Shown here piece after piece: positions 53,778 to 56,364 of a DNA stretch of 64,000 bases. Within the stretch, counting starts at the first letter, position 1, and each line of letters starts with the position of its first letter. Below the pieces are notes generated by a model. It saw only the letters and a list, made by a program, of their open reading frames with translations. It was not told the origin of the DNA and did not search any database. The translations under genes and the position numbers were made by a program. Origin of the DNA: Acinetobacter rathckeae (GTDB lineage Bacteria > Pseudomonadota > Gammaproteobacteria > Pseudomonadales > Moraxellaceae). Location: NCBI RefSeq assembly GCF_015627125.1, contig NZ_VTDO01000002.1, positions 186,001 through 250,000 on the forward strand, given 5' to 3'.

Positions 53778-55118
53778 TTATCTGTATGTAGGTCGTTGAC
53801 CTTGTAAAATTTGTGCAATATCGTAAGCTTGATGGTCTGAAAATTTACCGACAATATCTAAGACTTGCATAATATTTTCGTAATGACTTGCACCAAAATG
53901 AATGCCATATTGTTGTAAAATGGTCATGAGTTTTTGGTCTTTAAAACTGAGTTGACGTGCAGGGTCGGCGAGTGGAACAAATGCATCTAAGATGTGCTGT
54001 AGGCTCATATGTGCCACAATTTCTAAGTCCATTTTTTGTCTATGTGCAAAAATTTTGTCTCTTGCTAAGGTTTTTGCAGCATCAATGCCCTGAGCAATGT
54101 CAGGTGAACAATATTGGAGAAGTGTACCCTTAAATTGGCCTCTTAAAATATCTGTTTGATATTTTGCAAATGTACTTGCCACTTCTTCTACGAGTCTTTT
54201 CATGGCACGGCCACGTAGGGCAGAAATTTTTTGTTGCCATGTTACCCATGTGAGTGAAAGTTCATGGGGTATGCCATAGTCTGCAATCAGTTGTATAAAA
54301 ATAGGTTCAACTTCTTCATAGCTGAGCATGTCTAAACTGATGCCATCTTCTAGGTCGATGAGAGCATAGCAAATGTCATCTGCAGCTTCTAATAAATAAG
54401 TGAGGGGATGGCGACAGTAGTGGTAGGGGCCGAGTTCAATCAGTCCTAATTTGTTGGCAATATTTTCTAGGATATGTTTTTCACTTTGATAGCAACCAAA
54501 TTTACTGCGTTGATACGCTTGCTTAGTGTCATCATTGCTAATGATATGAGATAGCCACGGGTATTTAAGGTATGTACCAAGTGTTGCAAACGTCAGGCGC
54601 ATGCCACCATCTTCTGGGTGGTCATCTATGCGTGTAATCAGGCGTAGGCCTTGAGCATTGCCTTCAAACTGTCTGACATCTGCTTGTTCTTCGGGGCTCA
54701 GTTGGTCAAGTTTCCCTTGTTTTGCGGCATGGTCAAACCACTCTCTAATGGCATATTCACCTGCATGGCCAAAAGGTGGGTTGCCAATATCATGTGCAAG
54801 ACAAGCGGCTTGAATAATGGCACCAACATCTGTGGGGTCTATCCATGATGGTAAATCATCTTTAATTTTTTCGGCAGCTAACATCCCTAATGAACGACCA
54901 ATACAAGACACTTCTAATGAGTGAGTCAAGCGAGTATGTACACCATCGTTTTGGGTCAGTGGGTGCACTTGTGTTTTTCTGTTGAGCTGTCTAAAACTTT
55001 GTGAAAATACAATGCGGTCATAGTCCTTATGAAAAGGGCTTCTGCCCAGTTCACTATGACTTTTTTTGCTTCCTAGCCGAATGGCGGAAAGTAGTTCTAG
55101 CCAACGCATTTCTTTCAT
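53778..55118 (-). CDS. dgt: Deoxyguanosinetriphosphate triphosphohydrolase-like protein
   Basis: A 446-residue HD-domain dNTPase. The HD residues are in TRLTHSLEVS and AACLAHDIGNPPFGHAGE; YCRHPLTYLLEAADDICYALIDLEDG holds the later Asp. It hydrolyses dNTPs (dGTP in E. coli) to the nucleoside and triphosphate. N-terminal RSPFHKDYDRIVFSQSFRQL matches the family. First gene of the minus-strand series leading to ruvAB; ATG 55109 is an alternative start. Confidence 0.92.
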   Translation of the reverse strand: MKEMRWLELLSAIRLGSKKSHSELGRSPFHKDYDRIVFSQSFRQLNRKTQVHPLTQNDGVHTRLTHSLEVSCIGRSLGMLAAEKIKDDLPSWIDPTDVGAIIQAACLAHDIGNPPFGHAGEYAIREWFDHAAKQGKLDQLSPEEQADVRQFEGNAQGLRLITRIDDHPEDGGMRLTFATLGTYLKYPWLSHIISNDDTKQAYQRSKFGCYQSEKHILENIANKLGLIELGPYHYCRHPLTYLLEAADDICYALIDLEDGISLDMLSYEEVEPIFIQLIADYGIPHELSLTWVTWQQKISALRGRAMKRLVEEVASTFAKYQTDILRGQFKGTLLQYCSPDIAQGIDAAKTLARDKIFAHRQKMDLEIVAHMSLQHILDAFVPLADPARQLSFKDQKLMTILQQYGIHFGASHYENIMQVLDIVGKFSDHQAYDIAQILQGQRPTYR

Positions 55119-55455
55119 TAATTTTAATAAGTTCCTTGTAGTGGTTGTTTACATCATGCCAAAAAATTGCAGGATTCTCTAGTCACTTGCGTCAAAATTT
55201 GTCGCAGTATTTGGATATTTGTTTGGAATTTTAACGATATCTGATAGGCATATAAAATATTGGCTTTTATGATTGGTATTCATTTGAATTAAGTTTTATT
55301 TAAGCTTCGGTTTTTATTATACAAAACATAGGAATTCTGCTGTAATTTCCTATTTTTGGGCCATACTCCTACTGACAGAGTATGGCTTTTTTTTATCTGT
55401 AAAATATGCCTTTTAAGTGAAAACGCAATATTTAAGAGGTTAGATTTTGCTGTAA
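55119..55455. other. 337-bp gap between dgt and htpX, containing a candidate small RNA
   Basis: No ORF of useful length on either strand. The left two-thirds are AT-rich, holding the dgt promoter. The right part carries a plus-strand -10, two hairpins and a strong T8 terminator that serve no annotated gene. Confidence 0.7.
55328..55394 (+). ncRNA. Candidate small RNA with its own -10 and rho-independent terminator
   Basis: TATTAT at 55315-55320 predicts a start near 55327. Stem-loop 1 is ATAGGAA/TTCCTAT (55328-55334, 55347-55353). Stem-loop 2 is GCCATACTC/GAGTATGGC (55360-55368, 55378-55386), followed by eight Ts, a typical Hfq-sRNA terminator. Both flanking genes are on the minus strand, so this plus-strand terminator belongs to neither. 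The -35 is weak. The transcript would be about 67 nt. Confidence 0.5.
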
Positions 55456-56364
55456 TTACGGGCAGTTTAAGCGTTGTAATGCAGCAACACGTTGTTCAAT
55501 GGTTGGGTGCGTTTGAAATAAAGCACTTAAACTGAAGCCACCTTGCTCTTTACCTTCGGTAATCGCTAGTGCTTTCATTTCTTTTGGCATTTGATCAGGT
55601 AATTCAGTTTCTGCTTGTAAACGCAGTAAGGCTGAAATCATGGCTTGCTTACCTGCGAGCTGTGCACCTGCTTCATCTGCACGGTACTCACGGTAGCGCG
55701 AGAACCACATCACGACAGCACTTGCTAAAATACCAAATACAATGTCTAACACCATCGTAATAATAAAGTAGGCAATACCAGGGGCTTCACCGTCTTCACG
55801 ACCAAAAACATTGCGGTCAATAAAGTCACCGACGACGCGAGCAAAGAACATCACAAATGTGTTCACGACACCTTGAACTAAAGACAGTGTGACCATATCA
55901 CCATTGGCAACGTGACCAATTTCGTGTGCAAGCACTGCACGCAATTCGTTTTGATTCATGCGTTCAAGTAAACCGCTAGACACGGCAACTAAGGCATCAT
56001 TTTTATTCCAACCTGTTGCAAAAGCGTTTGATTGGTAAGAATGAAAGATACCGACTTCTGGCATTTTAATACCAGCACGTTGTGATAAATCAGCAACCAT
56101 TTGCAGTAAAACAACTTCTGCTTGGCTACGTGGTGCATTCGGGTTAATAAGTTCTGTACCCGTGGTTTTTTTCGCCATCCACTTTGACATGAATAACGAT
56201 ACAAAAGAGCCAACCATACCAAACACAAAACAGACAACCAGTAAGTTACCTAACTTTAGACCGCCTGCGCCGTGATAACTCCCGACACCTAAAACTGACA
56301 AAATAAGACCAGCGACAACTAGTACCGCGAGGTTGGTTAGCAAAAACAAACCAATCCGCATCAT
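55456..56364 (-). CDS. htpX: Membrane zinc protease HtpX
   Basis: A 302-residue M48 metalloprotease of the inner membrane. Two N-terminal helices precede the zinc motif [13 protein letters not shown] and the third ligand Glu in [11 protein letters not shown]; two further helices lie between. It degrades misfolded membrane proteins in envelope stress, alongside FtsH. GAGG lies 9 nt before the ATG at 56364. Confidence 0.97.

Follow-up and report, generated by a model that had tools for sequence, protein, structure and literature searches.

A conserved, very probable small-RNA gene with a predicted PmrA-type promoter between dgt and htpX of Acinetobacter rathckeae

Results

A small transcription unit between two minus-strand genes

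The window, the whole 64,000-nucleotide stretch of Acinetobacter rathckeae DNA that was analysed, carries between dgt and htpX a short plus-strand unit composed of a direct repeat, a −10 element, two hairpins and a T-run (Table 1). A preliminary description had proposed a small plus-strand transcription unit at this location, and its sequence elements were found where it had placed them. The plus-strand T8 terminator with its 9-bp stem was confirmed by reading the sequence, as was the minus-strand orientation of both dgt and htpX. The terminator belongs to neither gene, as had been argued, because both are encoded on the minus strand and no T-run follows the hairpin on that strand. Two figures were approximate: TATTAT, placed 12 nt before the first stem, begins 13 nt and ends 7 nt before it, and the transcript, given as ∼67 nt, is expected here to be ∼69 nt long. 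The box upstream of the −10 element and the link to groEL and dgkA described below are additions to that account.

Table 1. Features of the dgt-htpX region, in positions of the window
Feature	Position	Strand	Remarks
dgt	53778-55118	−	Upstream neighbour, divergent; HD domain
PmrA-type box ATTAAG-TTTTA-TTTAAG	55288-55304	+	Direct repeat; matches HTTAAD-N5-HTTAAD
10-nt spacer	55305-55314	+	Length fixed, sequence variable; TANNNT at exactly 10 nt in 30/30
−10 element TATTAT	55315-55320	+	Read from sequence and from spacing to the box
Putative small RNA, ∼69 nt	55326-55394	+	Start inferred from the −10 element; end at the T-run
Hairpin 1	55328-55353	+	7 bp; arms 55328-55334 and 55347-55353; 12-nt loop 55335-55346 with GCUGUA
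Terminator stem-loop	55360-55386	+	9 Watson-Crick pairs; arms GCCATACTC 55360-55368 and GAGTATGGC 55378-55386; 9-nt loop
T8 tract	55387-55394	+	Next base is A
htpX	55456-56364	−	Downstream neighbour, convergent; M48 peptidase domain

A promoter-like element and a terminator with no neighbouring gene on the same strand are the hallmarks of an intergenic small-RNA gene, and the T8 tract provides, in sequence, the poly-U end behind a hairpin by which Hfq-dependent sRNAs are recognised. In the computed fold, two G-U pairs are added at the base of the terminator stem, and the 72-nt piece 55325-55396 folded at −20.8 kcal/mol, compared with −10.8±2.4 kcal/mol in 200 shuffled sequences, none of which was as low (0/200; z −4.22). 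Both the terminator and a sigma-70 promoter at TATTAT were absent from the output of a generic promoter and terminator scan, the former because the loop limit of the scan was 8 and the loop here is 9, and the latter because there is no good −35 element; the position where a −35 would stand is taken by the conserved PmrA-type box. Separately, GCTGTAATT recurs at 55449-55457 across the htpX stop codon, so that 9 nt at the end of the htpX mRNA would be able to pair with the loop region of the RNA.

Distribution of the unit in the genus

When the whole intergenic region was compared by BLAST with 58 genomes, two genomes besides its own (G020 and G015) matched only inside 55281-55406, and a third (G027) matched through a 51-base piece outside the unit. 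A query of 55285-55400, which contained the box, gave 12 strong matches among 175 genus genomes, own included, with E-values of 1.1e-24 or better. A covariance model restricted to the RNA (R1) was built from these 12 close copies; over the 175 genomes it scored its sources at 87-102 bits, as it must by construction, and the next match at 41, and it found neither a close copy lacking the box nor any further close copy with it. The weaker R1 matches (E 1e-5 to 0.01) were considered as orthologues and, for the most part, rejected: most of those read form a separate group with GCTGTA[AG]TTT, other terminators and no box, and one, L130 (= L164), is an orthologue.

A second model, R2, comprising the RNA plus the box and the −10 element, added 11 orthologues with E-values of 3e-15 to 4e-6 (G165, G082, G179, G035, G063, G123, G008, G177, G104, G105 and G169). 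Since groEL precedes many copies (see below) and was found in at least 174 of the 175 genus genomes, the 450 bases downstream of it were searched for the box in 80 genomes without a previously known unit, and five of these (G092, G110, G109, G062 and G068) contained the unit. In the other 75 regions the box scan, which a copy without a box would escape, found none, and the RNA therefore looks clade-patchy. Together, the RNA unit occurs in at least 28 of the 175 genomes (12 close copies, 11 from R2 and five from the groEL scan). The covariance search for the two stems that the preliminary description had suggested thus did find copies in the genus; lack of hairpin conservation, which it had named as evidence against a small RNA, was not what we observed, with near-identical copies in 12 of 175 genomes and both hairpins kept in distant orthologues.

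With one of the five groEL-scan units as BLAST query, four A. baumannii records of PLSDB matched. Annotation was opened for two of the four; in one of them groL and diacylglycerol kinase are annotated on either side of the unit, and no feature is given for the RNA itself, in a table that leaves out RNA genes and is therefore uninformative on this point. Three PLSDB records of A. baumannii (NZ_CP104448.1, NZ_CP077849.1 and NZ_CP064203.1) are 3.7-4.1 Mb in length, that is, chromosome-sized, and are filed as plasmids. The window unit itself gave no BLAST match among PLSDB plasmids and none among phages. Of 80 Dgt-related loci, 11 were from Acinetobacter, and a motif scan that tolerated at most 4 substitutions detected no close copy in these; when R2 was run on thirteen genomes (11 Acinetobacter, 2 Psychrobacter), none of the 20 fetched loci showed the window RNA; 24 weaker places stand outside these 20. 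In contig C14 of G000 (399,635 bases), matches pair at mirror positions on opposite strands (53339/346297 and 135561/264075, each pair summing to 399,636), which suggests that this contig consists of a sequence joined to its own inverted copy, probably through an error of assembly that may account for the contamination value of 8.49%.

The analyses below use a set of 30 sequences: the 12 close copies, 5+6 from R2, five from the groEL scan and two A. baumannii records. Left out of the counts were L178, which lies at a contig end, L175-L177 and L179-L181, which are different RNAs, and weaker R2 matches without loci.

Genomic setting of the copies

Of 23 loci, 15 have groEL upstream on the same strand (L089, L090, L092-L096 and L167-L174), with a 166-aa ORF between groEL and the unit in L089. 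On the other side, dgkA is convergent with the unit in all 18 distant copies, that is, in 11/11 R2 orthologues (L164-L174), 5/5 groEL-scan units and 2/2 A. baumannii records; no dgkA was seen in the flank fetched around the 12 close copies. The convergent neighbour of the close copies is htpX in L085-L091 and a tRNA-Ser gene followed by greB in L092 and L093, while L094-L096 show only unnamed ORFs on this side; only the window, L086 and L087 have dgt on the upstream side. Because the neighbours differ across copies, the unit moves as a unit and is tied to neither dgt nor htpX. From these arrangements we infer that groEL-RNA-dgkA is the older gene order.

Conservation of the two hairpins

The terminator stem was present in all 30 minimum free energy folds and hairpin 1 in 28 of them, the exceptions being L096 and L165. 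Of 17 pairs compared in the 12 close copies, 1 is changed on both sides. In the distant copies paired changes were seen by eye in hairpin 1 (AGGAA/UUCCU versus AGAAA/UUUCU) and in the terminator (CCAUAC/GUAUGG versus CCAUGC/GCAUGG); hairpin 1 was read from individual folds and not from pair counts on alignments because the automatic alignments (A5 and A6) misalign its short 5′ arm. The loop hexamer GCUGUA occurs in 20 of 30 copies and is missing in L165 and in nine copies of the A. baumannii type. A small ORF was considered and dropped, as only the L094/L095 type has an ATG opening a five-codon frame. Such conservation of structure across species is expected of a small-RNA gene, and we consider it very probable, from comparison of sequences, that the unit is a real and conserved one.

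Two other RNA-like units were met in these searches. One, a two-hairpin unit of the form GAAATC..GCTGTAG.TTTC with a terminator, was found in L128, L129, L132, L133, L135, L139 and L141-L143 (∼1440-1565) and in the PLSDB matches H1-H25. It directly follows a sequence that we take to be a pdif (XerC-XerD) site and is followed by repeats resembling iterons. A query from L132 that included the pdif-like site matched 800 PLSDB records, 799 of them from Acinetobacter, and among the 25 matches listed no annotated feature underlies the unit, in a table that leaves out RNA genes. GCTGTA is common to this unit and the window RNA, and the unit has no PmrA box. The other, ..GCCACAT..CCAGATGTGGC followed by a T-run, was found in L176, L177, L179, L180, L203 (A. 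dispersus), L204 (A. colistiniresistens), L221 and L202/L215 (an A. lwoffii MAG), in species that gave no copy of the window RNA, and is convergent with queH in L176, L177, L179 and L180. A PmrA-like repeat stands 10 nt before its TANNNT, a box that is not independent evidence, being part of the model that retrieved the unit; this may be a second PmrA-box RNA.

A conserved direct repeat at fixed distance from the −10 element

The direct repeat NTTAAN-N5-NTTAAN was present in 30 of 30 copies, and the strict form HTTAAD-N5-HTTAAD in 18, the window and the other 11 close copies included; in the remaining 12 boxes, among them those of both A. baumannii records, a half-site begins with G. In all 12 close copies the repeat reads WTTAAG-N5-TTTAAG, and upstream identity falls off except at this repeat and the −10 element. 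A TANNNT lies exactly 10 nt past the repeat in 30 of 30 copies (23/23 distinct promoters), compared with 0-5 of 30 at 13 other offsets, and this constant distance from a conserved activator-type box backs the earlier proposal of TATTAT as the −10 element.

The presence of the box is not fully independent of how the copies were found. The 12 close copies came from a BLAST query containing it, yet R1 gave no close copy without a box; the five groEL-scan loci were selected by the box, spacing not being used; the two A. baumannii records came from BLAST with a groEL-scan unit; and for the 11 R2 loci both box and −10 element were part of the model. The box alone is a weak predictor, with HTTAAD-N5-HTTAAD occurring 120 times in the window genome versus 53 in a reversed control, and HTTAAGN6TTAAG occurring 12 times in the A. 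baumannii chromosome and 12 times in its reversed control. The spacing rule of box, 10 nt and TANNNT may sharpen the prediction of PmrA targets, and for dgkA it is in line with a published transcriptome (see below).

Relation of the promoter to PmrA, pmrC and dgkA

PmrAB controls resistance to polymyxins, which are last-line drugs against A. baumannii, and PmrA turns on the cell-surface changes behind this resistance. The window box equals the A. baumannii PmrA box given in published work as HTTAAD-N5-HTTAAD (PMC12654582), and as TTTAAGN5TTTAAG at pmrC and naxD, with EMSA and ITC for PmrA binding (PMC10927774); the likeness is one of sequence. The calorimetry probe of that study (PMC10927774) contains the site TTTAAGTCATTTTTAAG, which in NZ_CP104448.1, an A. 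baumannii chromosome, is followed after 10 nt by TACATT; the ORF downstream has EptA_B_N and Sulfatase domains and is taken as pmrC. Three of the 12 HTTAAGN6TTAAG sites of this chromosome have TANNNT at 10 nt, namely those of pmrC, the window-type RNA and an unnamed 116-aa ORF (L342).

The same layout of box, 10 nt and TANNNT precedes dgkA in half of the 12 loci scanned (L302, from A. baumannii, with L173, L174 and L166-L168) and is absent in the other six (L164, L165 and L169-L172). The A. baumannii dgkA promoter (L302 ∼2178, minus strand) reads TTTAAT-N5-TTTAAG, 10 nt, TATAAT. In two colistin-resistant clinical A. baumannii, only seven transcripts were reported as over-expressed in both, including those of diacylglycerol kinase and PmrC (PMC6330354), and a PmrA-type promoter of dgkA would explain this joint over-expression. 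DgkA has also been tied to lipid A phosphoethanolamine transferases (PMC10285318, citing Purcell 2022).

The window genome encodes PmrA, the first two PDB matches being 8imw ('Transcriptional regulator') and 7m0s ('response regulator PmrA'), with E ∼1e-64; 7m0s is named as A. baumannii PmrA in PMC12654582. A histidine kinase gene follows pmrA, so that a PmrA/PmrB pair is present, and the genome has a second BasR-like regulator (L151). A relaxed pattern of box, 10 nt and TANNNT matched 10 times in this genome versus 4 in the control, and G ends both half-sites in only 2 of the 10, the site 292 nt before pmrA and that of the window RNA. No dgkA was recognised behind the 10 relaxed sites of this genome, in which dgkA itself was not located. 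The ∼290 nt from the PmrA-type promoter to the pmrA start (L150:732-1057) may be a long leader or hold an unread small gene.

Tests for targets

Target tests covered one seed and five leaders. The 10-nt loop complement TACAGCAGAA occurred at 27 places, versus 3 in the control, and none of the 27 was assigned to a ribosome binding site. Predicted duplexes with leaders were no better than those of shuffled RNA, as 115 (pmrC), 141 (dgkA), 145 (pmrA), 142 (htpX) and 48 (dgt) of 200 shuffles were as low. The loop change in the A. baumannii type speaks against one seed for all copies.

Discussion

Our best reading is that the unit is probably an independent small-RNA gene that yields an RNA of ∼69 nt and is most likely activated by PmrA, a degree of confidence that rests on the promoter evidence. 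A phosphorylated OmpR-family regulator, most likely PmrA, would bind the direct repeat at 55288-55304, which takes the place of a −35 element, and drive sigma-70 RNA polymerase at TATTAT, and transcription would end at the T8 terminator. The resulting RNA would presumably be expressed and use Hfq, and may pair through the loop of hairpin 1, the anti-Shine-Dalgarno-like UUUCCU or both, tuning envelope mRNAs while the lipid A modification genes are on, by analogy with MgrR. We are less sure that it acts in trans by base pairing, a function suggested by the conservation of hairpin 1, by the T8 end and by the regulated type of promoter.

One alternative is that the small RNA is real and is driven by another OmpR-family regulator, for example the second BasR-like protein, which could use the same site, or is constitutive. 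In favour of this alternative, the AT-rich box departs from the strict consensus in 12 of 30 copies, but the layout is that of A. baumannii pmrC, of dgkA in 6 of 12 loci and of pmrA in the window genome, and the TTAAG core is kept while its surroundings drift; we therefore consider it unlikely. Slightly less probable still is a cis-antisense RNA, in which the 3′ end of the convergent mRNA (dgkA or, in the window, htpX) would extend across the unit and pair with its RNA. Convergence is indeed the rule for dgkA in the distant copies and is found with htpX in the window. Moreover, the dgkA strand of A. baumannii lacks a T-run behind the hairpin and continues to the groEL terminator, so the dgkA 3′ UTR would hold the full complement of the RNA. 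Against this, the close copies have no dgkA in the fetched flank, and their convergent neighbours differ while the RNA is near-identical in 12 of 12. A cis-antisense role against the dgkA 3′ UTR is thus possible in A. baumannii, and would leave copies away from dgkA unexplained.

We see little chance that the unit is a terminator or insulator only, with an RNA that has no function of its own; it would then either end a long antisense transcript coming from around dgt or shield convergent genes from each other. Its terminator is strong and conserved, and many copies do have convergent neighbours, but conservation extends beyond it to hairpin 1, the box and the −10 spacing, and at different loci the unit is found with a promoter of its own.

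The PmrA regulon has been described through enzymes such as PmrC and NaxD (PMC12654582 and PMC10927774, as far as their available text goes), and a conserved RNA under a PmrA-type layout would add a directly testable post-transcriptional layer to it. Belief and doubt are evenly balanced, in our view, for the broader proposal that the RNA is an undescribed sRNA arm of the PmrAB lipid A/polymyxin regulon, in which PmrA switches on pmrC, dgkA and the RNA together and the RNA re-tunes envelope mRNAs. A. baumannii and its distant relatives encode the RNA tail-to-tail with dgkA, which itself recycles the lipid by-product of PmrC-type transferases.

The window RNA and its A. baumannii copy scored below gathering in Rfam release 15, with permissive matches far under the cut-off, and the only hit at gathering in the window was a tRNA away from the unit. 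Literature on Acinetobacter sRNAs, PmrA, dgkA and the box motif, a body from which subscription papers were mostly missing, named neither the window RNA nor a PmrA-regulated Acinetobacter sRNA. Kroger et al. 2018 may list the window-type transcript. The RNA may also already stand in published A. baumannii sRNA catalogues, for example among the AB5075 coordinates of Weiss et al. 2016. That catalogue (PMC5320573) comes from the same genus and contains multi-copy families, of which Group 1 is C4-phage-like, whereas the window RNA has no C4 match in Rfam. Aar is likewise a conserved sRNA of the genus, but its description as 103 nt long, with CUCC in its seed and not induced by polymyxin B, sets it apart (PMC11472050).

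The kind of gene proposed here, a two-component-regulated small RNA, is already known, and this member of it is absent from Rfam 15. In E. coli, the sRNA MgrR targets eptB. MgrR is regulated by PhoP (PMC6239178) and resembles what is proposed for the window RNA in being an sRNA under a lipid A-modification two-component system; the likeness drawn is one of regulation. The regulators differ, and while eptB is a known target of MgrR, the tests above found none for the window RNA. In its promoter, the unit has in common with the A. baumannii pmrC and naxD promoters (PMC12654582, PMC10927774) the TTAAG direct repeat with N5, and with pmrC, where spacing was compared, the 10-nt distance to a TANNNT −10 element. 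It differs from both in that some boxes of the window-type RNA start a half-site with G, and in that those promoters drive lipid A modification enzymes, whereas the predicted product here is a short RNA.
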